A stretch of DNA of 64,000 nucleotides. Source: Pseudanabaena sp. Chao 1811. Lineage in GTDB: Bacteria > Cyanobacteriota > Cyanobacteriia > Pseudanabaenales > Pseudanabaenaceae. This document shows positions 2,444 through 56,877 of this stretch, in pieces. Each line of letters opens with the position of its first letter. Positions within the stretch are counted from its first letter, which is position 1. Under the pieces are notes generated by a model. That model saw only the letters and a list, made by a program, of their open reading frames with translations, did not search any database and was not told where the DNA came from. The stretch spans positions 2,210,001 to 2,274,000 of the forward strand of contig NZ_CP101416.1 in NCBI RefSeq assembly GCF_027942295.1, given 5' to 3'. A program made the translations under genes and the position numbers.

Positions 2444-2478
2444 ATTTTAATGAGAGCGCTTTGCGCTCTCATTAAAAT
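2444..2478. repeat. Perfect 16-bp-stem hairpin overlapping the hemerythrin stop codon
   Basis: ATTTTAATGAGAGCGC and its exact complement flank a TTT loop. The left part of the hairpin encodes the last residues (NESAKRSH) and stop of the hemerythrin gene, so the hairpin supplies the protein's C-terminus. It lies between the hemerythrin and acsF genes of the operon and could lower or separate acsF expression. Confidence 0.75.
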
Positions 2479-2890
2479 TGTCTTTTTGAAAGAAGCGAAT
2501 CATCTTCTGGTCTTCACCCTTGATGTGGTGAGACAGCCATTCAGTCAGGAATTGGGTGATATCGGTAGTAATGGCATCGCGATCGCGAAATTTCTTTAGT
2601 AGATGAGACACCTTATTGACGAGATGATCATGGGTCTGTTTATGTCGCTCATAGTCAGGATAATTGATGGACAACATTAAGGTTTCTTCGGTCTGAAAAT
2701 GCTCAACTGTGTGACTAGCTAAGCGATTTAAGATTTCATACATGGTGTCAAAGTCCTGCTTTGTGACCACGGCATCATGCAAAACATTCACGATTTCAAA
2801 GAGTTCTTGATGTTCTTGATCTACCTGTAAGTTGCCAGTTTCATAGTCTGTATGCCAATAAGCGATCGGTTTCGTCAAAGTCAATGTCAT
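2447..2890 (-). CDS. Bacteriohemerythrin-family oxygen-binding protein
   Basis: The protein of about 147 residues has the hemerythrin four-helix pattern that holds a non-heme diiron site. In order: YWHTDYETG, HQELFE, HTVEHFQTEE, HKQTHDH and HHIKGEDQKM, giving the expected H...HxxxE...HxxxH...HxxxxD ligands. Bacteriohemerythrins bind O2 and serve as carriers, buffers or sensors. The ATG at 2890 fits the usual N-terminus better than the upstream ATG at 2911, which adds MYLLLIS. It lies between hemN and acsF in the same direction, so it could manage O2 or iron for an oxygen-free radical-SAM step and an oxygen-using diiron step. That role is inference. The last codons lie inside a hairpin. Confidence 0.85.
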   Translation of the reverse strand: MTLTLTKPIAYWHTDYETGNLQVDQEHQELFEIVNVLHDAVVTKQDFDTMYEILNRLASHTVEHFQTEETLMLSINYPDYERHKQTHDHLVNKVSHLLKKFRDRDAITTDITQFLTEWLSHHIKGEDQKMIRFFQKDNFNESAKRSH

Positions 2891-2935
2891 AGAAATTAAT
2901 AATAGATACATCGGTTTAGCACTTTGCGCTAAATC

Positions 2936-3087
2936 ACTGGTGTTATGTGGAAGCTTACAAGACCCTCACCCCTAGCCCCTCTCCCCTTTTGGGAGAGGGG
3001 AACAAGAATTTAGTCTTACTCCTCCTCTCCCTTAATGGGAGAGGGGGCTGGGGGGTGAGGGCGATATCTATTTCACGTAACATCAGT
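2936..3087. mobile_element. MITE-like element, family I (ACTGATGTTACGT ends), copy 1
   Basis: The 152-bp element begins ACTGGTGTTATGT and ends ACGTAACATCAGT, which are imperfect terminal inverted repeats. Its centre holds two long arms of the GAGAGGGG/CCCCTCTC type. TAAAT occurs at 2930-2934 and 3088-3092, consistent with a 5-bp target duplication if one extra C belongs to the left end. It carries no gene. A second copy lies at 35314-35467. The right end abuts the hemN stop codon, so the element separates hemN from the hemerythrin gene and would fold into a large hairpin in the operon transcript. Confidence 0.75.
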
Positions 3088-4490
3088 TAAATAGATTTAG
3101 AAAATCTGCCTGTTTCGTTTTTGACGAGATAGCTATCAAAGACCGAGGCAATATTACGGATCAGCAACCTTCCCGCAGGCTTAACCTCAATGTGGTCTTG
3201 TCTCAATTCAATCAAGCCATCAGCCTCTAACTGGCGCAACTTTAAGCGTTCGTCGGCAAAGTATTTACCAAAATCGCGATCGCAGGTTAGATGATATTTA
3301 GATTCAATTTCCCTCTGTGAAAGTTCAAATTGACACATCAATTCCATAATGATGGAACGACGCAAAATGTCATCGGCATTCAGCTTGACACCACGTTCGA
3401 TGGGTAACTCACCTGCATCGATCGCCTTGTAAAAGTCTTGCAAGCCCTTATGATTTTGGGTATAGACATTTTGCAGCATACTGATCGAAGTCATCCCAAA
3501 TCCCAAGAGGTCAGACTCAGGCTTGGTGGTATATCCCTGAAAATTGCGGTGTAGTTTTCCTTGACGTTGCGCGATCGCTAATTCATCATTGGGCTTAGCG
3601 AAGTGATCCATACCAATGAACACATAGCCATGCTTGGTCAAAGTTTCAATTGTCATTTCCATGATTTGCAACTTCTCTTCAGGGGAAGGCAAAGTTGCGG
3701 GATCGATCTTCTTCTTTTGTAAAGGCTTTAGCCAAGGCACATAGGCAAAGTTAAATACGGCAACGCGATCAGGATTGAGAGCAATGGTTTTCGCGAGGGT
3801 TTCATGGAATGTCTCTAGGTTTTGATAGGGCAATCCATAGATTAAATCCACATTCACGCCTTCAAATCCCACTTCACGCATCCAGCGCATTCCATCAAAG
3901 AGCATGTCTTCAGGTTGAATCCGATTGACTGCTTCTTGAACTTGGGGATTAAAATCCTGAATGCCAAAGCTAATACGGTTAAAGCCGAGATCTCTTAAGC
4001 CCTGTAGATATTCTTTAGTTAGCGATCGCGGATTGACCTCAATGGAAATTTCGGCATCTTGCTCAAAGGTAAAATGCTTTTGGAAAGAATGCCACAGACG
4101 TTCCACTTGATCGAAAGAGAAATAATTGGGAGTGCCGCCGCCCCAGTGCATTTGTTGGACGAGGCGATCGCGATCTACCGTTGCGGCAACCTGCTCAATA
4201 TGGCGAATCAAATATCCTAGATAGGGTTCCGCAATTTCTTTGCGAGTGCTAATTACGGTGTTGCAGCCGCAAAAATAGCAGGGCGCATCACAAAAGGGAA
4301 TATGGGCATAGAGGGATAGTGGTGTCTTCTGCAAGTTTCCTGCAGCGATCGCTCCACGAAAATCGATTTGTTCAAAATTTTCGTGGAGTTCTGTTGCAGG
4401 AGGATAACTTGTATATCTTGGTACGGGCTGGTTGTACTTATGTAAGAGGTTAATGTCGAACTTAACTGTTTGCTCTAATGTATTCATCAA
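3087..4490 (-). CDS. hemN: Oxygen-independent coproporphyrinogen III dehydrogenase
   Basis: The 467-residue radical-SAM enzyme decarboxylates coproporphyrinogen III to protoporphyrinogen IX without O2. The 4Fe-4S cluster motif CxxxCxxC is C67, C71 and C74 (HIPFCDAPCYFCGC), and the family-typical GGGTPNYF follows. The N-terminal PVPRYTSYPPA and the C-terminal HemN domain are present, so this is a full-length HemN rather than the shorter HemW. It starts 39 bases after the ho stop codon, suggesting co-transcription. The combination with ho and acsF matches the low-oxygen tetrapyrrole set known from Synechocystis. The stop codon touches the right end of a MITE-like element. Confidence 0.93.
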   Translation of the reverse strand: MMNTLEQTVKFDINLLHKYNQPVPRYTSYPPATELHENFEQIDFRGAIAAGNLQKTPLSLYAHIPFCDAPCYFCGCNTVISTRKEIAEPYLGYLIRHIEQVAATVDRDRLVQQMHWGGGTPNYFSFDQVERLWHSFQKHFTFEQDAEISIEVNPRSLTKEYLQGLRDLGFNRISFGIQDFNPQVQEAVNRIQPEDMLFDGMRWMREVGFEGVNVDLIYGLPYQNLETFHETLAKTIALNPDRVAVFNFAYVPWLKPLQKKKIDPATLPSPEEKLQIMEMTIETLTKHGYVFIGMDHFAKPNDELAIAQRQGKLHRNFQGYTTKPESDLLGFGMTSISMLQNVYTQNHKGLQDFYKAIDAGELPIERGVKLNADDILRRSIIMELMCQFELSQREIESKYHLTCDRDFGKYFADERLKLRQLEADGLIELRQDHIEVKPAGRLLIRNIASVFDSYLVKNETGRFSKSI

Positions 4491-4529
4491 ATCTTATAAG
4501 CTTTATTAAAAATATTGAATGAAAACTCG

Positions 4530-5261
4530 CTATACCGTTACAGGATGTCCACGACGTTCGGTACTACCAACCCGATCCTGTTTGGTTAGTAGTTCAAATA
4601 CATGGGGATCAATGACCGCTCTCACATCTGCTTCTAACTCATCAACCACATTCCGATTGAGGGTAAAAGCATAATTTGCCTCTTCGACAATTCTTTCAAC
4701 CGTTGCCTCATCCACCTCAAGGGAATCCAAAGCTTGACGATATTTATCTTTAAAATCCTTCTTGGCTTCTACCGTTGGCAATTGGTCAAATTCGTAAAAA
4801 GTTGTACCATGCTCATCGGGTAAGTCGAGTGCCGATCGCACGATATGCTTCAAGGCTTGACCGCCAGATAAATCGCCCATATAACGGGTATAGGAATGGG
4901 CAATCAGCAACGCAGGATCAGTATTAGAAATTTCCTTGAGGCGATCGACGTAGGCTTGTCCTGCTTTTAAAGGCACAATTTCGGAACGCCAATTTTCACC
5001 ATAATAGAAGGCTAAATCCTGTTCTAAATTTTGTTGGCGATTGAGTTCTTGGAAATATAATTTGCCAACAATAGGATGTTGCTGATGCCGACGAAATTCC
5101 TCTTCGAGGGTGCTATACACAAGATAAAGATTTGCCAATAATTTCCTAAAAGGAACGGTCTCCACAATTCCCTTGAGAAAGCATTTCATAAATGCAGTGT
5201 TCTCTGCGGCAGTATGTGATTTCTGTGTACCTTCGCGCAGACGGTTAGCTAGGTGACTCAT
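4530..5261 (-). CDS. ho: Heme oxygenase (biliverdin-forming)
   Basis: The 243-residue protein opens heme to biliverdin IX-alpha, CO and iron, using ferredoxin and O2; biliverdin feeds phycobilin synthesis. The proximal heme ligand is His16 in the N-terminal GTQKSHTAAEN motif, and the distal helix GDLSGGQ lies at 129-135. It is the first gene of the leftward ho-hemN-hemerythrin-acsF group. By synteny it corresponds to the low-oxygen isoform HO2 of Synechocystis, but sequence alone does not prove the isoform. A perfect 10-bp inverted repeat lies 40-85 bases upstream of its start codon. Confidence 0.92.
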   Translation of the reverse strand: MSHLANRLREGTQKSHTAAENTAFMKCFLKGIVETVPFRKLLANLYLVYSTLEEEFRRHQQHPIVGKLYFQELNRQQNLEQDLAFYYGENWRSEIVPLKAGQAYVDRLKEISNTDPALLIAHSYTRYMGDLSGGQALKHIVRSALDLPDEHGTTFYEFDQLPTVEAKKDFKDKYRQALDSLEVDEATVERIVEEANYAFTLNRNVVDELEADVRAVIDPHVFELLTKQDRVGSTERRGHPVTV

Positions 5262-5300
5262 CGACAGTTACTCACGAATTTTAATGGCATCATCCTAGAC

Positions 5301-5345
5301 CTTATACTTATATATAATGTCAAGCAAAGTTATGTTAAGTATAAG
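5301..5345 (-). promoter_or_regulatory. Promoter/operator candidate upstream of ho
   Basis: CTTATACTTA at 5301-5310 and TAAGTATAAG at 5336-5345 form a perfect 10-bp inverted repeat with a 25-base spacer. On the minus strand the spacer contains TTGACA followed by AT-rich sequence. The low-oxygen operon of Synechocystis is controlled by the MarR-type regulator ChlR, and dyad sites are usual for MarR proteins. Binding by a ChlR homologue here is inferred. Confidence 0.4.
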
Positions 5346-5421
5346 CTCGTGACTTTTATACGCTCTTCAGCTTGTGAACGTTATTTATGTGCGATCGCTT
5401 AACAAGCGCCATAGAATTTGT

Positions 5422-8400
5422 TCAGATGATCGATATCAAAGGTTTTGTAGCATTGATGTAAAGGAAGCGATCGCTTGTTTGTTCTTTCACAACGGTAAAT
5501 CCTAAACTGTCGATTAAATCTAGCAATTCTTGTTTTTTATCTATCCATCGAGTGATGGTTTCAGCGATGAGGAGACTGCCGCCGCCCTTGAGGGTGCGAT
5601 GGGCTTCTTGAAGATAGTCAGCGTAGTTTAGACCCATAAGAGATAGGGAAAAGATGGCGACATCGAGGGTTGCATCTGGGAGAGGTGTATGGGAGATGTC
5701 ACAGGCTTGTACTTTTGCGTTGATGGCGATGTGGTCGAAGGAATGGACTTGGTGATTGGGAAGTAATTCGGCGAGTTTGGCTTCACCGCAACCGAAGTCA
5801 CCGATCTGGAGATTGGTATAGTTTTGAAGTTTTTCGGCAATTTTTTCGTAGGGAATTTCCTGCCATGTTTCACGGGCGGCGCGATAGAGGTGGTGGTATT
5901 GATACCATTCTTCGGGATTGGCTTTGAGCCGATCGCCTGTGGTGTGGCTGTAGGAATTATTGAAGCGGTTGTTCATCGCTGAGAAGTCCCCAAAGCGGCG
6001 TTGTAGGATTTTAGCGATCGCTTCGGGTAAGGTGACGCGTAACTCTTCACGGTTGATTTCGTAGATGTCGCCACTGTCAACGCGATTGATCCATGTTTGT
6101 AGGGCTTCTCCTGCTTTTTGGAGGACGACTTTTTCCGATGCGAGTTCGCCTTTGGGAATTACGCCATCGATCGCGGTGTCAGCGAGGGACTTTTTCCATT
6201 GGATGCGACTCCATCGGTATTGGCGATCCCATGACCAGATATCGCCTTGATGGTCGAGGATAACTTGGGGAATGATTACTTCGACTTTAGCAAAGGATGA
6301 TTTTTGGCGATAGATGCGCCCGACTAGTTGCTCGTATTCGGCATGAGTCCAAGGGAGGCTGGCAATAATCAGGCGATCGCAGACATATTGCAGTCCATCT
6401 ACGCCTGTGCCGATGGGAGCCGTGCCGATGAGAATGTCGATTTCTCTGGCGATGAATTTCTGTTTGGCGGAATCACGGTCTTTAGTATCTTCTACGCCTG
6501 TGAATAAGCCCACCTTGTAACCTGCGGCGGCGATCGCCTTGCGGAGTGGTTCGACCATACCATCGACATAGTGGGTATAGATGAGGGTTCCTGTTTTGAG
6601 ATGGGCGATAATGGTGTCGATTTTAGCTGAGAGGAGGACTTGCTCGACGGCGAGGGGGCTGGTTTTGATGGCGGCGATGAGTTGGGGGCGCAGGTGTTCG
6701 CCTGAGATTTCGGGAAAGCTTTCGGCGATCGCAATCTTGTAATTGGGACGATAGCGGATGCCATGAAGCATCAGTTTTTCATGCATGGCAAGGGCATTGG
6801 CGATTGTGCTGAAGGTTTTCAGCTCGTCAAATTTTTCGCCTCTAGTCATTTCTAGCAGTGCCTTGGCTTCGTAGAGGTTGTTGATTACGGGTGTGGCGCT
6901 CATGCCTAAGACGCAGAGTTCAGGATTTTGGCGGGATGCTTCGGAGAGTAGGTAGTTAAGGGTTTTGCGGCGTTTGCTTTCTTTGTTGGGACTGGGATCG
7001 CGTTGTTTGACGTTTTGGATTTCATCGATGACGACAAAATCGATCTGGTGATTGGCGAGGATGTTGCCGACAAGTTCGGCGGAGTAGGGTTGTTGGAATT
7101 TCTCGAAGTTGAGGATGAGATAGTTATGTTGTTTGCGATCTACGCTGATTTCACCGCGTTCTTTTTGGTAAATGATGCTGTCGGGATAGACTTGGGCGAT
7201 CGCTTTTGCCCATCCTTCGATGGTGCTGTTAAAGGCGATGATGATCGTGAATTTGGCGTTAATGACGCGACTGGCAAAGATAGCGGATATGGTTTTCCCT
7301 GCGCCAACTCCTGACCAGTTGCCGATCCTTCTTTCCGTGAGGATGCGATAGGCAGTGAGGCGTTGCATCAGGTTGGGTGGATATGGGAAGTTATAGCCGT
7401 TGGGTATGGTTAGGTTTGCTGCGCCATCGTGTTGACTGAGGAAGCGATCGCGGATCGTCTGAAAGTATGTGCCGCCTGTTTCGTTGCGAAGTCTGTCTAG
7501 GTCAAAGGTGGGGTCGTTGTTTAGGCAGGTTTGCCATAGGGCGCTAACGCGATTACAGATTAGAAATTCTATGGTTTCATAATCTGAGGTAATTCCTGCT
7601 TCTACAAGTAAATCAACTGCTTTTAGAGAGTCAAAGGATTTTAGTTGAGGTAGGTCATTAGATACAGTCTTAGAGTCATCAGGAACTACATCTTTTTCTA
7701 ATTCTTCGGTATCTACATCATCATCAAGATCACTTTCAGTATTTTCGGGTTTACTTTCTTCTTTGTTTGTTAATTCTTCTAACTGATTAACTATCTCATT
7801 AAATTTAGCTTCTTTATCTTGATCTTCATCAGAACCTAAATCTTTAATCTTTTTAAGTGTTTCAGCATTTTTCTGTTTGTTCCCAAGAGAGGCAATCATG
7901 CCATTTTGTCTCATGATTGCATAAAGTTCAGAAGACTCTAAGCTTAATAAGATAGGCTTTAGGCTATATAAAAAGCTCAGAATGGCATTTGGTCGCCATA
8001 AATTGATGATACCTAACCAGTCTCCATAACCTAACCAACTTTTATTCTTATATACATCATGAGGATTAGTAGGGATGTCTTCAGGCTTATTTCCTGATTT
8101 TGTCCACTCTATCCACTCTTGCCTACTTTTGATATTAAGTTGATGTACAAACTTACGAGCTTCCTCAAATGAGCGATATTTACGATTAAAGACTGCAACT
8201 GTACCAGTTCCTAACCAATCACCCCAACCTTTCCAACCTTGATTCTTGTAAACTTTAGTAGGATCAGCAGGAATATCATCAGGTTGCAAGTTAGTTTTTA
8301 CCCAATTATTCCATTCCTGCCTACTTTGTAATTGAAGTTTATGGACAAATAGTTTTGCAGACTCAAATGATCGGTAACTTTTATTTTGCGGAGCAACTAC

Positions 8401-8643
8401 ATTTGTACCTAGCCAATCACCTAGACTTTCCCAACCCGTATCTTTATAAACTTTTTCAGGAGCAGACGGTATGTTATCAGGTCTGGCTTCTGATTTTCTC
8501 CATGTTGTCCATTCTTGATTATTTTTTAACTGAAGTTTATGAACAAACTTTCGCGCTTCCTCAAAAGGTAAAAAGCTACGATCAACAACTGCAATTATCC
8601 CTGTCCCCAGCCAATCTCCCCATCCACTCCATCCTGAATTCAT
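5422..8643 (-). CDS. Integrase-type repeat array, SF2 helicase and Rrp8-like methyltransferase fusion (3' part of an IS-interrupted gene)
   Basis: The 1073-residue part has three sections. Residues 1-215 hold tandem units with GDWLGTG, SFEEARKFVHQL, SRQEW and KPEDIPTNPHDVYK, resembling the phage-integrase repeat unit. Residues 425-790 are a superfamily-2 helicase/translocase: P-loop GVGAGKT 445-451, DEIQ 540-543, SAT 582-584 and QLVGRIYR 772-779. Residues 890-1073 resemble Rrp8-type SAM methyltransferases (GDFGCGE 948-954, ACDISHTPLPD, FSLSLMG). The frame stays open beyond this ATG to 8870, where an IS is inserted; the original start is at 10249. The intact protein would have been about 1188 residues. 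Whether translation restarts at 8643 is unknown. The function may be in defence or mobile-element biology, but this is not shown. Confidence 0.75.
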   Translation of the reverse strand: MNSGWSGWGDWLGTGIIAVVDRSFLPFEEARKFVHKLQLKNNQEWTTWRKSEARPDNIPSAPEKVYKDTGWESLGDWLGTNVVAPQNKSYRSFESAKLFVHKLQLQSRQEWNNWVKTNLQPDDIPADPTKVYKNQGWKGWGDWLGTGTVAVFNRKYRSFEEARKFVHQLNIKSRQEWIEWTKSGNKPEDIPTNPHDVYKNKSWLGYGDWLGIINLWRPNAILSFLYSLKPILLSLESSELYAIMRQNGMIASLGNKQKNAETLKKIKDLGSDEDQDKEAKFNEIVNQLEELTNKEESKPENTESDLDDDVDTEELEKDVVPDDSKTVSNDLPQLKSFDSLKAVDLLVEAGITSDYETIEFLICNRVSALWQTCLNNDPTFDLDRLRNETGGTYFQTIRDRFLSQHDGAANLTIPNGYNFPYPPNLMQRLTAYRILTERRIGNWSGVGAGKTISAIFASRVINAKFTIIIAFNSTIEGWAKAIAQVYPDSIIYQKERGEISVDRKQHNYLILNFEKFQQPYSAELVGNILANHQIDFVVIDEIQNVKQRDPSPNKESKRRKTLNYLLSEASRQNPELCVLGMSATPVINNLYEAKALLEMTRGEKFDELKTFSTIANALAMHEKLMLHGIRYRPNYKIAIAESFPEISGEHLRPQLIAAIKTSPLAVEQVLLSAKIDTIIAHLKTGTLIYTHYVDGMVEPLRKAIAAAGYKVGLFTGVEDTKDRDSAKQKFIAREIDILIGTAPIGTGVDGLQYVCDRLIIASLPWTHAEYEQLVGRIYRQKSSFAKVEVIIPQVILDHQGDIWSWDRQYRWSRIQWKKSLADTAIDGVIPKGELASEKVVLQKAGEALQTWINRVDSGDIYEINREELRVTLPEAIAKILQRRFGDFSAMNNRFNNSYSHTTGDRLKANPEEWYQYHHLYRAARETWQEIPYEKIAEKLQNYTNLQIGDFGCGEAKLAELLPNHQVHSFDHIAINAKVQACDISHTPLPDATLDVAIFSLSLMGLNYADYLQEAHRTLKGGGSLLIAETITRWIDKKQELLDLIDSLGFTVVKEQTSDRFLYINATKPLISII

Positions 8644-8870: not shown

Positions 8871-10127
8871 CTGAGATCTTGCAGCATTCGTGAAAGAGTC
8901 AAGTGGGAATGGGTTTGAGAATAATTTCAAAGCCATGACGAGCAGCAATATCGGCACTAATTTGAAGATACCTGAGAAGTTTCAACCAAAGGACAGAAGG
9001 GAATAAAACAGAAAGGGTTAAATCACAGGTAGCTTTCCAGTCCAAGATGGGAGGAAACGACCATTGATCAATCCAATGAGCCAAAAGATAAGAAAGCAGA
9101 GAGAGGATAAGCCAACGATAAACGCCAAGTTTTGTAGATTGCCCAAAACAATGCAAACCAAAGCGATGTTTGATGGTTTTGAAGAATCCCTCAATCGCCC
9201 AACGCTTACGACCTAACATCACCAGATAAGCGCCAGAATAAGGATGAGAAGAGACCACAAAGCGTAACTCCCGTTTACTATCGGCTCTTTTGAGCCAGAA
9301 CCAAGAGATCGTCAAAGGCGTACTTAGCCCTTCCAGTAAAATTAGTTGTCCACGTTTGCCATGGGGATAAAGTTGTTTGACGGTACGTCCATCTTGAAGT
9401 TTACGATTGTTGCGGACACCGACAACGATGCGCCAAGACTTGGCGCGGACAGCATTGAAAAACTTCACCGTACTAAACTCAGTATCAGCAAGGACAATCA
9501 CAGTCTTGCCTTGGGTTAGTTGCTTGGGTACTGTCCCCAATAACTTACAAGCTAAGTCAGAGGGACTGGAGTATCCTTTGCCGCGCCATACTCTAAAACT
9601 CCATGGTACGCGCCACTCTCCATAGACCAGATACAGTACAACCAGATGTAGTCCTCGCTTTCCGTTGAGGATTCTCACCCATGGGTCTGGTTCGTTTGGG
9701 GTGGGATTGCTCAAATGTAAAAACTTGCCGCTTTTTTCTAAGGTGGTCAGGTCTATCAGTATCTTTAATGGCACTCTCTTCGATGGGCGATGCTTGGCGA
9801 TTTGCCCCAAAATTGACAGCCTTGTTGCTCGAATTAGTCCTCTTGTTGACCAGTTATAGTGATTGAGAAATCGGCTTAATGCACTCGCTGATTTTACCTG
9901 TGTATGTTCTGGATAGGGATGCCCTTGCGCTTCCAGAAATAGCCCTAATATTGCATTCAGACTTGCTTTTTGATACACACTTGGCATCAGACAAATTAGG
10001 CTATACACTAAACCTTGGGCGTGCTTAACGATGCTTTCCATAATCGTTATTTAATTTACTACTACGCCCTTTTTTTCACATCTTTACTCTCTTTGCAACC
10101 CCTTTCCAGAATGGTGCAAGTTCTCAG
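8871..10127 (-). mobile_element. IS4-superfamily insertion sequence, complete, 1257 bp
   Basis: The ends CTGAGATCTTGCAGCATTC and (complement of the right end) CTGAGAACTTGCACCATTC match at 17 of 19 positions. ATAT flanks both sides (8867-8870 and 10128-10131) as a 4-bp target duplication. It carries one transposase gene reading leftward. It splits the helicase-methyltransferase gene after codon 41, and removing the element plus one ATAT restores the reading frame exactly, so the insertion is recent. Confidence 0.92.
8899..10041 (-). CDS. DDE transposase, IS4 superfamily
   Basis: The 380-residue transposase shows the DDE catalytic pattern: ILIDLTTLEKSGK, then VIVLADTEFSTVKFF, then RWAIEGFFKTIKH, the last giving the R(3)E(6)K spacing typical of IS4-type enzymes. 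The gene is intact and fills the element. It cuts and joins DNA at the 19-bp terminal repeats. The exact ISfinder family (IS4 or IS701-like) is not resolved; the 4-bp duplication argues against classical IS4 members with longer ones. Confidence 0.9.
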   Translation of the reverse strand: MESIVKHAQGLVYSLICLMPSVYQKASLNAILGLFLEAQGHPYPEHTQVKSASALSRFLNHYNWSTRGLIRATRLSILGQIAKHRPSKRVPLKILIDLTTLEKSGKFLHLSNPTPNEPDPWVRILNGKRGLHLVVLYLVYGEWRVPWSFRVWRGKGYSSPSDLACKLLGTVPKQLTQGKTVIVLADTEFSTVKFFNAVRAKSWRIVVGVRNNRKLQDGRTVKQLYPHGKRGQLILLEGLSTPLTISWFWLKRADSKRELRFVVSSHPYSGAYLVMLGRKRWAIEGFFKTIKHRFGLHCFGQSTKLGVYRWLILSLLSYLLAHWIDQWSFPPILDWKATCDLTLSVLFPSVLWLKLLRYLQISADIAARHGFEIILKPIPT

Positions 10128-10249
10128 ATATCTTTCGGTTTGGATTCAGTTTTTGTCCAATCTGACCATTCTCTTCTGCTTTGTAAATTAAGCTGATGGA
10201 CAAAAGTACGAGCTTCTTCAAACGAGCGCCAGTTTGTTTTTTTTACCAT
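10128..10249 (-). pseudogene. 5' fragment of the helicase-methyltransferase gene
   Basis: The minus strand from the ATG at 10249 reads MVKKTNWRSFEEARTFVHQL, continues with SRREWSDWTKTESKPKDI, and then enters the IS. It is the first repeat unit of the helicase gene: KPKDI joins directly to PADPRQIYKDNGW across the insertion, like the KPEDIPTNPHDVYK of other units. An in-frame stop lies five codons upstream of the ATG and an AGG sits six bases before it, so this is the likely original start. As it stands it can make only a 41-residue peptide. Confidence 0.88.
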
Positions 10250-48283: not shown

Positions 48284-48438
48284 ACCCTAAGCAAAACTTT
48301 CGTTGCTATAGCAGCATAGGTAATGTGGCGCATCATCCCATCTTGAGGACTATGCCTGTTTTTTGATCAGATCAAAATATTTGCAACTTTTACAACTTGC
48401 TTGGGTAATATATTTCAGTCAGGTTGGTAGAAACTTTT

Positions 48439-51400
48439 ATGTCCGACTCCAAGCAAAGCCGCAAACTCAATCGTTTTTTTGCCGAATTTCTTGCCAAGAT
48501 TAGAAAATGGCTAAACAAAATCGGCAGCCCAATTCGGATTAGTCGCCGCTTTATCCGTCTATTGCTCAATGGCAGTAGTGGAAAAAAACGCAAGGCGGGC
48601 GGTTTCATCTTGCCAACTGTGACTTTGGTGACTTTAGTTGTCAGCTTGCTGGTAGTCTCCACAGTTGCCCGCTCAACTGACCGTGCTAGAGAAGCTTCTA
48701 ATGCTCGAGTTGAACAAGTATATCGCAGCGCTAACTCGGCGATTCTCGATCGCGCTAGGGCAAAGATTAGCGCCCTAATCGAAGATCCCACTCTACCTGG
48801 GGGAACTCCACCTGAATCTTCCCTCTACCAAGCTATTACTAGCGACAATGGTAACTACACCTTTGCCGATGAAGTTCGCCTCCAAATCGTCGATCCCGCA
48901 GTAAAATCTCCATCTAACGTCATTAACTGGGGAGCAGTTGCGATCTCTGATAATGATGCTGTTGGTACGACTTGGAAGTTCCCTGTTGATACTGACAGCA
49001 ATGGTAAGTTTGACTCCTTTGCAATTTACACTATTCTGTTCCGTACAACGCCACGGGATACGGTTACTAACCTCAATACCCGTGCGGTTAGCCCAATCGA
49101 AGTCCGCACACCACCGATGGACAATGGGGTGCTAAGTGGTGCTTGTGTAAATGCGGCTTCCTCTGGTGCTAGTACGACGGAAGGTTGGGTAACGACATCG
49201 GATAACGCTCTCAAAAAGAGTTTCTTTGTCTATGCACTAACGGTTCCAATTACTACGCCACTCAATGATCCATCTAGCCCTCTTACCGCAGCAGAGCAAG
49301 CGGGTGGAGCCTTTGAAACTTATGCTGGTAATCCATCTTTCAGTGCGCTCGAACTCCAACAAGACCGTGCGCGATCGCCTCAAAATAATAATGCGGTTTG
49401 GTTTGAAGGGGACTTAGAAATATCACGGGCAGCAGCCTTTGACTTGAACGGAAGAATCTATACAGCTGGGAATCTGATGTTGGGGGTTGAAAGTTCTCCG
49501 ATCAGGCTTTTCCAAGTTAGTAGTCCTTCTTCTTGCTATTACAAAGAAGAAAATAGCAAAATTTCTGTAGCAGGGAATGTTGTTGAAGGGGATGCTCTCG
49601 TTAGTGACAACTCATTGAGTGTAAATTCAACGGTTGGGGTGCATTTGTTCCGAGGAGGTGGGGTAGATCCTACGGGTGGGAATCCTAATACTTTGGTTGG
49701 AACTAATGCTGGAGCTGCTGCAGGACAAATCAAGATTATTGATAACTCAACCCAAAGCGTAGAAGACAATGATTCAAATCGGGGACGTGATGTTGCTTTT
49801 AATGACTTTGCCTATAACTTTCGGGTAGATGCACTGGTTAACTTAGCTGATGCCACATTTTCAGGGGCGAATGTCATTACTTCAGGATTACCTTCCTACG
49901 CATCGATTACAGATAAGGATGTTCTGACCAGTGATCCACTGCCTGTCAAGTTAGATATTGTGAAGCGAGTAATTGATGAAGGTCTTACTACAGAAGCTGA
50001 CTTTAGAGTTGCTCGCAGAAAGGCTTTAGATGCCTATTTTAGATTGCGGACACGCAAAGTTCCCTATCGTGAAGTTCCCTATGGTGCTTCCGATAGCGTA
50101 ATTTACGGTGGAGTTACACCCGCAATTACTACAGTTACCACAGCTAGCGGGTCAGAATGGCAGCCTCCAATCGAGTGGATGTTTCCTGCCTATTCCAATG
50201 CAGCTCCAATGACAGGAGATGTCTCTGTAGCCGCCGATCTCGTGAATATTAAGGCTGGTAAATCTTTAATAAGAGGAAGTGCTGGCACAAATCCAACTAC
50301 GGTTCCGCCTACAGTGGCAAAAATTGGTGACTTGACCCTAGGAAAAACCAGTACGATTTCATCAGCATCGATCGCTGCTTTGCCTGCCACCAAGCCCGAA
50401 GATGAGAAGGTTACTTACGAGCAATTTTTGGGCGATCGCGTATTAGTTGGTAATAACTTACCTGCACTATGGCTCAAAAATGATGGTGGCATCAATCGCT
50501 ATGTAGGTTTGACGGAGGCAAATTACCTCACCAGTAACGATTCAATTCGCTGGAACAATACGGAGACTTCGGCGATCGCTGCCTCCACTGCTAACAGTCG
50601 CTATCGCTTTACCCAATCAAATTCGCTCAAGTCTTTGGGTGTGTCAGATCGAGGCGGTTTCTGGGAACTCAATGCGGCTGACAACCCCGGATTTGACGCT
50701 ACTGGTAAGTCAACTCCCACCACCACACCAGTTAGTGGTGGTCTCAGAGTTGTTACTAGTGCAGGGGTGTATAGTCGTAAAGCAACCCAAACATTTCTAC
50801 CCGCGCCACCTGCTTTAGTTGATAACCCGATTACCTCTAATGACACTTCCACTTCATCACCAGAATCTGATTTTCGTTACAGATTAAATGAAGCGAATTT
50901 CCCAGTTGTCTGGAGTGATGCGATGCCAATGACTGGCTCGGTCAAACTAGATACTTCCGTAACTCCTAATGTCTATCGTCCTTGGAATTGGACTGCTGGG
51001 CGTTGGGCAAATTCTACGGATGCTGCAACTGTTACTATCGATGCTCTGGGCAATACTGCACCCAATCCTGACAATCGGAAGGGTGATTTGCAGATGCGAG
51101 CCACTGCGGTCTATCACTACAAAACATCGGCATATGACCCAGCCGCTCCTGCTACATACCAAGCTCCGATCGCCTGTGTCAGTAGCTACTACGATCCCAC
51201 TAATTCCGTTACTGCTCAAGATGTTTCTGTAGCAGGTGGGCGCTCAAATAATGGATATTCCTATGCTGTTGGTCAAACTGCTGCTAACATCACATCTGGC
51301 ATCACCTTTACCAATTCAACAGGGCTATTTACAGTCACTTCTGGAGCTGACGATCCTGCGGACGCAGGTGTTGCTCTATCATCTCGTCTGGCATATCAAG

Positions 51401-54400
51401 CAAACTTAATGTTCCCTAATGGTAGATTTGCCAATGAACCATTACGGAATGCACTCATCAAAGTTTCAGGAAGCCAGACTCTGACTTTGCCTGACCAGTC
51501 AGCCATAGACTCGACACTCTGTTCACTACAAATTCTCGATGGAACGATCGCTAAGAGTACGACTCTTTTCCCTAACTTTGCAGTGAAGGAAGCCGCATTC
51601 TTAGATGGTCGTGAAGTGAAGGCTCTTAATCAAGATGAGTCATTAACCACACCAATTGCGAATAGTACCAATCGTTCCGATCTCTATAATCTCGAAATAG
51701 AACAGCGTGAGCCGCTAGAGATTCGGGTGACGGATCTCGATATGGAAATATTGCGATCGACAACTATCTCAGGGACTAACAACACTACTAATGGCGTAAA
51801 TCCAGACTACTTACTACCCTACAGTGGCGTTGTCTATGCGACTCGTGATGATTCACTACCTGACCTCAGTTATTTTGATACTGACACAAGCGGAAATCCT
51901 GTCACTACTTTGATGAGCAAGCGGCGATCGCTAAGTTCAACCGATTTTCGTCTTGATCCCTCCCGTCGCCCCAATGGCATTCGTCTACGGAATGGAACTC
52001 GTCTCTGGCGTGGTACTGGTACTACGCAGCCAAATTATAGTACAGCCACCCAAGGCGAAAAGGGATTGATTTTAGTTTCTAACGATCCTGTATATGTCAA
52101 GGCTGACGGTGGTGGATTTAACCTGCATACGGCTGAGGAGTTTACAACTGCACTGGCTAGTGATTGGAGTAATTTCTACACTCGAACCACTCTAAATCCT
52201 AACTTTGCCTATCGTCCAGGACAGGCTCAAGCCTCATCAGGAGGATCTGGTGGTGATCAATGGCGACCAGCGACGGTAATTTCTGATGGTATTACGGTGC
52301 AGTCGGGTAGCTTCGCAGAAGGTTTCCGCGATCAAGGTGACTATGACCTTCGCAATAACCGTAACTCCTCGACCAATACGAACTGGGAAGATCGCAGTCA
52401 AACTACTAAATTACTCAGTCAAACGGTTGGGTTAGGCAGTGCTTCTCTCTCAGAGCGCCAAGATTTACCATCGATCAAGCGCCTGAGTATGGGCTTCTTG
52501 AACAATAACTTTGTCACTAGTTACAACTGGCTGCCTGATGCAACTGTTGCCGATACAATCTCAGGAAATTCGGGAACCTACCCCGCCTTTACCGCTCTTG
52601 GTGCTGCAACTGCTACCTCTGATGTTGACTCCAATCTCTGGCCTGGACTGGGTAGCACGAACACTAATAGTTATCTCTCTAATGGTGTCACTCCTGTCCA
52701 GCGTCGGGTGATCTTTGGTGAATATGGCATGGAGATTTGCCGTAAGGTTCCTGCCTCGGAATGTACTTTTAGTGATTGGGTCAAAGATGGTGCAGGGACA
52801 ACAGCACTACCAAATGCTACTGGTACGACTGCACCAACACCAGCGGCTGCACCTCGATATATTGCGTCTGCGGATGAGCGGTTCCCCCGTCGTTTGTCAT
52901 TCTTGCGCTATGACGATATCTATAATGATGGGAACCAAGCACTTATCATGGCAGCAGGTTCTTGTCCTGACCTCAACAACTGGTGGCCGATGCCCATTGG
53001 TGTTGTTAATGGGAATACTGATGCAACGGCGGCTTCTAATGCTGGCTATACCTATCCACAGGTACTAGGCGATCGCACTACACCCTTTAGTCTGTCTAAC
53101 AGCACCGCCTATGGCAATGTTGGCTGTCCTTCAATACATCCTGTAGTCAGATTTGATAACAATAATGACATTGGTGACGTTGAGGGTAGAAGTATCTATA
53201 CCTTGCCCCAAAGTCCTCCTGATGCGGGTGACCCCTTGCTTTCAGGCGCAATCACATCTTCTAACCCTCAGAACCCACCTCTACGCCAAGGTGATCTCCC
53301 CACAAGTTATCCTGCCCCAACTACTGCTAATACAACAGCATCCGACTATGTAAAGACCAATGACTATGCCCCGATTGTGGCTAGTGGCAATCTGCCCGAA
53401 CCAAACTTTATTGTTCCTAATACCAATAACTCTACCGACAACCCCGTCACATGGCCCGGACATACCAAACGAAATGTTGTTCGTCAGTATCCTCCAGCCA
53501 CTGGCACAAGTACAACTCTAGCTACTAATGATGGATCAGGCAATACCGCTTCCAATCCTCCGACAAACCTAAGATTGAACAATAACGCTATTTATCGCCC
53601 CTATACATTTAGGGTAATTGTTGATAATCCCAACACTGCGAATAACAGCGATCCAGCTACTGGAACTCCTGCAACTCCGATCACCGTGGAGATTTCTACG
53701 GAAGATCCTAATCCCACCTCATTAACGGGATTGGATAGTAACGCATCACATATTGCTAAGCGCGGACTGTACTTAGGCACAGGGGCAACAGGGCTGCAAC
53801 CTCAGGTGAAAAACACTTCCTATGGAGGTAGTGCTACTCAAACTACGCCTGCTAATCAGATTGGGCTTGAAGAAGCGATCACCGCTCGTGGATCTGGTAC
53901 TGGTACTGACTATCTCTCGACTATTTATCGATGGAATGGTACAACTTGGGTTCCTGCCGACTATGTGGGTACTCCTGCGGCGGGCGGTAAACAAGTTCTC
54001 AAATTCCCCGACACCACTAATCCTCAATGTTCAGCAATCACTTCTGGCACTACTACCTGTTTCCAATGGGTAACAGTCTTGGTTGTCCGCGATAGTGCGG
54101 TTGAGGAAAGAGAAAGATTCCGTGTGCGGATTGATAATCCGAATGAGAAGGATACAGGTGCTGTATTAAGAACCGTTACTGCTCCTAGCACCACAAGCAA
54201 TGCCAATGCTTGGGATTATCGTTGGGTCAGGATTGACAATGACGATGCGCCATCAACTGGTGGAACACCAACACCAACACCAACGCCAACACCAACGCCA
54301 ACGCCAATCCCAACGCCAACACCAATCCCAACGCCAACACCAGTACCAACACCAATCCCAACGCCAACACCGAAACCAACACCAACACCAGTACCAACAC

Positions 54401-56877
54401 CAACACCAACACCGAAGCCTGTCACTCCAACACCAGTACCAACACCAACACCAGTAGCAACACCAACACCGAAACCAACACCAACACCAACACCGAAACC
54501 AACACCAACACCAACACCAACACCTATTCCTATTGGTCCTGGAACGATCTTCCCTCAAAGAGCCTTTAGTCATACACGCTTGCCATTCTCGGCAATCATG
54601 CCTCGTATTCCTGAATCTAGCCCCTTAGCTGCTGCCTATCCCGCAGCTCCTACTGGCACAACTAACTATCCTTTCCCCAGCTATGCAGGATCATCTGGCT
54701 ATTCATTTGTTCCTAACACTAAAGGCAATAGTGCTTGGGGCGTACCTGTAGCCAACCAATTCCCCGACATTGCCCCTGATCAAGCACCTTATGTCTCTGG
54801 TGGTACTGCGGCAACTGAAAATGCTCAGACTCCGATGTTGCCTGGAATGTCTAAGCTTGTTCCTCAGAGGGTAGCGCGATCGCTATGGTATAGAACTACC
54901 TCTGCCAACAGCGATCCGACTGGTGATAGTGCTGACACCCAATATGAAAACACGCGCAACCTATTTATCTACAACACCAGCTATGACTCAACCGCAGCTA
55001 ATCCCGCATCCAATGGCACATTTAACACCAATCAACCTGCGCCATTAATCTTGCCTGAAACAGTTTGTATCAATCCCACAACGGGCTTGGTAGATAAAAC
55101 CTGTACTGATGCAGGAGCGACCCTCAATCTCAATTTACCTGCTAACACTACATTCCCCAATGGTAGTGCGACCAACCAACCTGCATCGTCATTTACAGTT
55201 TGTGGTGCAACGGGTGCTTCACGTCGATATCAAGCAACTCAGCAGCTTGGTACGACATTCCTCAATGACATTACAGGTAATAGTTGTCCGACTACATTGG
55301 GCAATCCAAGAAGTGCGATCGTGAGTTTTGCCTCAGGTTTGACTACTACTAACTTCACCACTGGTCAAGCAGTATCGCTGAGTGGGTCTGGTACTACTTG
55401 GTCGGTGAATGCCCTTAGCAGCACTAAACCTAATGTCTTAGATTTAACGGCTGCTAATTTCACCTCACTGCTTAATTCGACCCTTACCTTAAATGCCAAT
55501 GGCAATACCGATCCGACATTCATACTACGCGCACCTGATTCTGCGGATATCACCATTGATGGTTTGTATGTCAAGTTGCAAGGTGTCGATCCTAACAAGG
55601 TATTTTGGCTATTCCCTAGATTGGGACCAAAAGCTCTAACGATTCAGGGTACTACTGTTAGCAAACCCACTGTACTGGTCGGTAACTTTATTGGAACGAT
55701 GCCCGCCACTGGTGGAGCCAGAGATACTGTAACAGGGTTAAATATTGGACCCACTTACAGTGGTCAGGGTGTTGCGATTAGAAGTGCGAGATTCTTAGGA
55801 TTTAGAGCAGTTAATGTCAAACAAGCTGCGACCGAATCAGCAGTTACACCTGTGGTCTCACCAGCAGCGATCGGAGTTGACTCCACAGCGATGATTACTG
55901 CCATGACTACCGTCAATCAGCCCGTCGTTGTTCCCGTGATCCAACTTCACTCACCGATCTCCAAAACAGTCGCAGCTTCTACCCCCGCTGCTACTGCCGC
56001 AGCAATGCCACAGCCCACTGGTTATAACCAGAAGTATCTGAATGGTATTAATGGTAATCCTGCCGCCGCCGCAACCCCAGGTGATGGCACAGGTCAATGG
56101 ACACAGCGAGCAAGTGCCGCTACAGTCAATATTTACTTCGTAGCAGGTAACACCCCATCGCGTTCCTATGTGCCATATACCACATCGGCAACAGCTGTTA
56201 CACCTAACACAACAATTTATACAGGTGAGACAGGCGGTGGCTTGCACAACTTTGTCCGCTTTATGGAGAACTGGACAGGTCAAACCCTACAGATCTCAGG
56301 TGGATTTATTCAAAATACCCGTAGTGTCTTTGCCACTGCACCATTCTCGGCAACTGCACCTTACAGCAGCCTTTCCGTCACTGGATGTACTACGACTTTG
56401 TCCTATGCGACCCGTGACACCTGTATTGAGACCAGTAGCGATATGCAGACTTGGTTTACCAATCCTTCTGCCGTTACTGATCCCCTCAGCAACTTTGCCA
56501 AGTATTACCAGTCCGTCACAGTGCAGTCAGTGCCTTTCTACTCACCACCTCGCAGAAAATGGGGATTTGACGTTGGTTTGCTAGTCCAACAGCCCGACTT
56601 GTTCGCGCAAAGGTTCTCGCAAGCGTTGCCTAACCCCAACGAGTTCTTTAGAGAGGCAACCAAAGATGATCCTTGGATCAAAACTATGCTCTGTGCCTTA
56701 CAGCCTGATCCCACTAAACTTGAGACAGACAATACCGCAGCCGATATCATCAATGTTGGCTATAAGCAAAAACTAGGTACTAAACCCTCAAATTACACAA
56801 GCTATGCACTTGGTAGCAAAGAGCGTCCATCCGATTGCGATACGCTAACTGCAAACAAGGTCTATAATCCTGCTTAG
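48439..56877 (+). CDS. hpsA: Hormogonium polysaccharide secretion pseudopilin HpsA, giant form
   Basis: The protein of about 2812 residues has a basic N-terminus and a pseudopilin-like segment, [20 protein letters not shown] at about 54-73. The residue at +5 after the G/F site is Thr rather than the usual Glu. HpsA proteins are needed, with HpsB-D, for polysaccharide secretion and gliding in filamentous cyanobacteria. The long surface part contains a Calx-beta-like region at about 1720-1937 ([28 protein letters not shown]). A Pro-Thr linker follows at about 1942-2032. The ATG at 48439 is preferred to the TTG at 48424. The C-terminal 780 residues are Thr/Asn/Ser-rich, as in surface proteins. 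Confidence 0.85.
54266..54535 (+). repeat. Pro-Thr codon repeat (ACACCAACACCA) in hpsA
   Basis: About 90 codons of alternating Thr-Pro, with Lys, Ile or Val substitutions, are encoded by 6-bp units such as ACACCA and ACGCCA. The tract should be an extended spacer between the Calx-beta-like part and the C-terminal part. Its regular DNA units make length changes by slippage likely. Confidence 0.85.

Follow-up and report, generated by a model that had tools for sequence, protein, structure and literature searches.

A bacteriohemerythrin gene beside chlAII in the low-oxygen tetrapyrrole cluster of Pseudanabaena sp. Chao 1811

The ho2-hemN-hhe-chlAII locus and its hemerythrin

We analysed a stretch of 64,000 nucleotides (hereafter the window) from the genome of Pseudanabaena sp. 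Chao 1811, which consists of one contig of 4.73 Mb. Genes were assigned by profile searches whose scores lie over the curated cut-offs wherever a cut-off exists. The following features were located:

5289-5346, minus strand: promoter-like block upstream of ho2, conserved in the genus, with the core CTTTGCTTGACATTATATATAGGTATAAGGTCTAGGATG in most relatives
5261-4530, minus strand: ho2, heme oxygenase (HO) isoform 2 (PF01126, 1.9e-80), first gene of the cluster
4487-3087, minus strand: hemN, O2-independent coproporphyrinogen III oxidase of the radical-SAM type (TIGR00538, 697 bits; cut-off 325)
2965-3067, minus strand: dispersed hairpin repeat (CCCTCACCCCCCAGCCCCCTCTCCC...) between hemN and hhe, with 62 matches in its own genome
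2890-2447, minus strand: hhe, single-domain bacteriohemerythrin of 147 aa (NF033749, 119.6 bits; cut-off 84)
2443-2479, unstranded: perfect 16-17 bp palindrome over the hhe 3' end, between hhe and acsF
2407-1331, minus strand: acsF/chlAII (TIGR02029, 495 bits; cut-off 193)
1165-59, minus strand: iron-containing alcohol dehydrogenase gene, next after acsF

A sequence-only reading of this DNA had described ho, hemN, the hemerythrin gene and acsF as co-directional, and this was borne out, since all four lie on the minus strand and each was matched to its family profile; acsF falls just beyond the interval 2447-5345 which that reading had given for the set. The genome encodes a second HO that is 54% identical to HO2 and a second AcsF that is 51% identical to ChlAII, both of them elsewhere, and HemN is its only true HemN, the other match being 30% identical and HemW-like. 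Clustered second isoforms of AcsF and HO are thus found together with a unique HemN, and the genes therefore constitute the low-oxygen set chlAII-ho2-hemN, reordered and with a hemerythrin added.

The hemerythrin was also matched by TIGR02481 (113.8 bits; cut-off 51.75) and carries no signalling domain. A RIC/YtfE-type HHE protein was not favoured, as the family match is to bacteriohemerythrin. An alternative ATG at 2911 would give 154 aa, but the product is probably the 147-aa form because alignments of the relatives start from the ATG at 2890. The seven diiron ligands H27, H64, E68, H83, H87, H122 and D127, in the motif H-HxxxE-HxxxH-HxxxxD (PMC9388753), were intact in the window and in all 21 cluster-linked copies. 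An AF2 model (mean pLDDT of 86.8) had the four-helix hemerythrin fold, and its best PDB matches were all hemerythrins, with TM values of 0.74-0.78 by query length for DcrH-Hr and Methylococcus Bhr and a highest TM of 0.78 by query and 0.86 by target length. The best profile match among solved structures was Methylococcus Bhr (4XPX, 1.1e-25), and a Leu occupies, in all linked copies, the residue aligned with Methylococcus L114, which is the site of solved mutants. Judged from these features, the protein would be a hemerythrin of the O2-binding type with an intact seven-ligand diiron site.

Values of dN/dS for hhe against close relatives were 0.08-0.14 and those of the neighbouring genes 0.01-0.07, which indicates that hhe is under purifying selection and less constrained than its neighbours; the protein diverges fast relative to theirs. 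A chance ORF or an artefact of the window was ruled out by the homologs and by purifying selection.

Elsewhere in the window, a gene at 5422-8643 encodes a protein of 1073 aa with INT_rpt repeats, a helicase domain of the SNF2 type and a methyltransferase domain at the C-terminus. Repeats similar to these resume (~10127-10234) past an IS701/IS4-like transposase gene (8899-10041), which suggests an insertion into the repeat region. An ORF of 2817 aa at 48424-56877, rich in Thr, Ala, Ser and Pro and with a prepilin-like N-terminus, had no Pfam match and presumably resembles the giant HpsA-type hormogonium proteins.

Promoter and intergenic elements

Of the 16 other genomes of the genus that were lined up, 15 have the block at 5289-5346 before ho2 (with several changes in G012); the divergent G010 lacks it. 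The conservation of this block is consistent with one regulated promoter. Among the MarR_2 matches examined in the Pseudanabaena sp. Chao 1811 genome, there was no clear candidate for a 4-Cys ChlR. Another box, CTATATAGCGATTTAA, lies upstream of both ho and acsF in G048 (L053:7882 and 8459) and G110 (L084:8541 and 9358), and G053 has it between these two genes (L101:8702); it is a candidate low-oxygen regulator site, and as a common element of hhe-linked loci it was rejected, being absent from Pseudanabaena.

The gap between ho and hemN is about 40 bp. That between hemN and hhe is only about 1-20 bp in close relatives, so that co-transcription of hhe with the cluster is strongly suggested there; in Pseudanabaena sp. 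Chao 1811 it is long and contains the repeat at 2965-3067, with a predicted fold of -77.7 kcal/mol (z of -9.2). G020 and FACHB-1998 do not have this repeat, their hemN and hhe being almost adjacent, and the site is thus polymorphic among relatives. The palindrome at 2443-2479, of which only three imperfect copies occur elsewhere in the genome, changes the C-terminus of the hemerythrin, which in relatives ends in FFQNK or FFQNQ, and might act as an attenuator or a terminator ahead of acsF. With a hairpin element on either side, hhe could be uncoupled from the rest of the operon in Pseudanabaena sp. Chao 1811. The gap between hhe and acsF varies across the genus, and about 40 bp directly before acsF are kept, so acsF might have a second transcription start.

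Occurrence in the genus and in other families

We surveyed 26 genomes of the genus, of which 17 had an intact hhe ortholog, seven had none and two a decayed one. Each of the 17 intact copies directly precedes acsF in a cluster ordered ho-hemN-(nrdG-like)-hhe-acsF and follows either hemN or an inserted nrdG-like gene, and no hhe ortholog was found among the 26 genomes without chlAII sequence beside it. The entire cluster is absent from G005, G006, G009 and G024, and G001 has ho2 and hemN and lacks both chlAII and hhe. In the congener G012, hhe has been cleanly deleted from an otherwise intact ho-hemN-acsF, and the hemN-acsF gap retains sequence that in relatives follows hhe; the layout in G010 is ho-hemN-desF-acsF, without hhe. 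What remains in the sister genomes G023 and G025 is a decayed operon (L051:6615-8661, L052/L123), in which internal deletions have joined ho (1-181) with hemN (192-) and hhe (1-78) with acsF (213-) out of frame. As for other genera, G027 has a remnant of a hemN/hhe deletion and G032 the order nrdG-like-hhe-acsF.

A gene for an nrdG-like radical-SAM activase, scoring under the NrdG cut-off, occurs in the low-oxygen cluster of several cyanobacteria (between hemN and hhe in L107, L109 and L112; also L043:1028-1663 and L084:12693-14233), and a further, MoaA-like radical-SAM gene is present in those of G032 and G110.

When 390 genomes of the class were searched with a profile, a minority contained this type of hemerythrin. 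The survey of gene order in other cyanobacteria, which the sequence-only reading had called for, placed hhe less than 300 bp from chlAII in three other families (G048, G110 and G197). In G048, the sole genome of its order in the survey, hhe is followed by acsF at 35 bp on one strand, divergent from ho-hemN-desF; the Thermosynechococcaceae MS004 genome (G110) has the same type of layout, with a radical-SAM gene and the nrdG-like gene after desF. In G197, which is the only genome of 36 in family f24 with this type of hhe, acsF and hhe stand tail to tail. Overall, hhe directly precedes acsF in three families and is tail to tail with it in the fourth, and in none of the linked cases surveyed was there a gene between hhe and acsF, or an hhe immediately downstream of ho. 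By simple arithmetic, about 0.01 such cases were expected by chance (gap <300 bp, 33 non-family genomes with a match of at least 100 bits) and three were observed. That the hemerythrin is an addition to the chlAII-ho2-hemN set, as had been claimed, thus held in 17 of 17 intact copies of the genus and in the three further families.

In the ChlAII tree, the hhe-linked proteins fall into two clades with well-supported branches between them, the label requiring five changes, and so the pairing of hhe with chlAII survived or arose at least twice. Transfer of a single hhe-chlAII cassette is not supported by these two clades. In the hemerythrin tree, all the linked copies belong to one cyanobacterial clade together with seven unlinked ones; the placement of G048 on its long branch is unsure, and judging from this tree, hhe itself need not have originated more than once. 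Since hhe is missing beside chlAII in the majority of clusters outside the genus and has been cleanly lost from the congener G012, it is, by its distribution, an optional accessory of the cluster.

A possible role in O2 supply

HO2 and ChlAII consume O2, and HemN does not tolerate it. Two functions had been put forward for a hemerythrin made with these enzymes, supply of O2 to the cyclase and protection of HemN; the protein proved to be a conserved and selected cluster member of the O2-binding type, and gene order favours ChlAII, which leaves protection of HemN as the less likely of the two. ChlAII would be the beneficiary because hhe adjoins acsF, never directly follows ho and is independent of hemN in G048 and G110, and it is preferred to HemN as a partner because in several species the nrdG-like gene comes between hemN and hhe and because G001 keeps ho2-hemN in the absence of chlAII and hhe. 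In vitro, membranes enriched in pMMO received O2 from the Bhr of Methylococcus capsulatus Bath (PMC12607906), and Pseudomonas aeruginosa Mhr binds O2 tightly, Anr regulating both Mhr and hemN (PMC12403760). Adjacency to acsF together with these two precedents therefore favours an O2 store or carrier for ChlAII.

In the mechanism that we propose, the hemerythrin would be made with HO2, HemN and ChlAII at low oxygen, would take up and release O2 at its diiron site and would hold a small cytoplasmic pool of O2, which could be handed to the low-oxygen O2-consuming enzymes, chiefly the diiron cyclase ChlAII and perhaps HO2, and synthesis of ring E of chlorophyll, and of bilins, might thereby continue when O2 is scarce. 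We tentatively give such an accessory role in the low-oxygen tetrapyrrole cluster a little less than an even chance. A narrower proposal is rather unlikely, namely that ChlAII, as the low-oxygen cyclase of Mg-protoporphyrin monomethyl ester, has in the hemerythrin a dedicated O2 donor or a physical partner subunit. Supply of O2 is supported by the recurrent adjacency to chlAII, purifying selection, the hemerythrin fold, the intact ligands and the second-isoform status of the neighbours; clusters without hhe elsewhere, the deletion in G012 and the hairpins on both sides of hhe count against it. So do the bhr knockouts of two methanotrophs, which had no phenotype in liquid (PMC12607906), and the autoxidation of some bacterial hemerythrins, which form no stable oxy adduct (PMC9388753).

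Nearly as likely as supply to ChlAII is a general micro-oxic role with mere co-regulation, in which an O2 buffer or carrier would share the low-O2 promoter of the cluster and serve respiration or O2 homeostasis of the whole cell. In P. aeruginosa, Mhr works together with cbb3 oxidases (PMC12403760), the same hhe clade occupies unlinked sites in seven sampled genomes, and the clusters gather other low-O2 genes (nrdG-like, radical SAM, desF), which fits shared regulation and not shared biochemistry; against this, hhe stands beside acsF in all linked cases, even where acsF is divergent from ho-hemN, and G001, with ho2-hemN and no chlAII, has no hhe. That last genome, along with the lack of hhe in most hemN clusters, also speaks against a scavenger of O2 that would shield the oxygen-labile radical-SAM enzymes HemN and NrdG-like. 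Such a shield would suit the close abutment of hhe and hemN in near relatives and the co-clustering of radical-SAM genes, but we regard it as improbable: a stoichiometric binder could not remove O2 for long, and the hhe of G048 and G110 lies beside acsF on the strand opposite hemN.

Iron handling and redox/NO signalling are carried out by related HHE proteins that belong to other types. The hemerythrin might accordingly supply iron to the ChlAII diiron site, repair that site, or sense O2 or NO, and ChlAII and DesF do require iron sites; membership of the bacteriohemerythrin family, the full set of O2-binding ligands and the lack of a signalling domain make this a shade less probable still than shielding of HemN. 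We give the least credence to a passenger gene, inserted into an ancestral cluster and functionally unconnected to its neighbours, for purifying selection, the order retained 17 times out of 17 in the genus and the repeated occurrence of hhe next to chlAII, in three further families and in two clades of ChlAII, all speak against it, even if the clean loss in G012, the decay along with the operon in G023, G025 and G027 and the fast divergence of the protein would fit.

It is poorly understood in cyanobacterial physiology how an O2-dependent cyclase and a heme oxygenase go on functioning with almost no O2, and a conserved protein of the O2-binding type beside the low-O2 cyclase is a direct candidate. 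If supply of O2 to ChlAII were true, one diiron protein would feed O2 to another within chlorophyll biosynthesis, and hemerythrin-assisted oxygenases would extend beyond methane oxidation. We know of no hemerythrin, and of no cyclase, with such an O2-donor role.

Relation to known systems

The chlAII-ho2-hemN cluster is known, and the variant with a hemerythrin beside chlAII is new. In the literature searched, outside which subscription journals largely lie, there was no paper on hemerythrin and Pseudanabaena together and no report linking hemerythrin to acsF or to low-oxygen chlorophyll synthesis; the main review of the chlAII-ho2-hemN cluster mentions neither hemerythrin nor Pseudanabaena, and its text does not include the nrdG-like gene.

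Synechocystis 6803 has a ChlR-controlled chlAII-ho2-hemN and Synechococcus 7002 a chlAII-ho2-hemN-desF, both described without hemerythrin (PMC4500134). As these two clusters and most others do without hhe, it is not required for ChlAII. The Pseudanabaena cluster shares with both the same three enzymes, with HO and AcsF as second isoforms together with HemN, and desF, known from Synechococcus 7002, is also present in the related loci of G010, G048 and G110. Unlike in the Synechocystis cluster, ho2 is first and chlAII last (ho2-hemN-hhe-chlAII), with the hemerythrin next to chlAII, and several species differ from both described clusters in having an nrdG-like gene as well.

Among hemerythrins, P. 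aeruginosa Mhr, an O2-binding protein of a low-O2 regulon that includes hemN, is likewise a single-domain protein, and the present one is clustered with hemN; Mhr is tied to cbb3 oxidase function, whereas here the neighbours belong to chlorophyll synthesis. Methylococcus Bhr (4XPX) has in common with the Pseudanabaena protein its single domain, the fold, the ligands and the Leu at the residue aligned with L114, and differs from it in sequence (34% identity over the structural match), in the cyanobacterial C-terminal motif HHI[KR]GED and in its partner enzyme.
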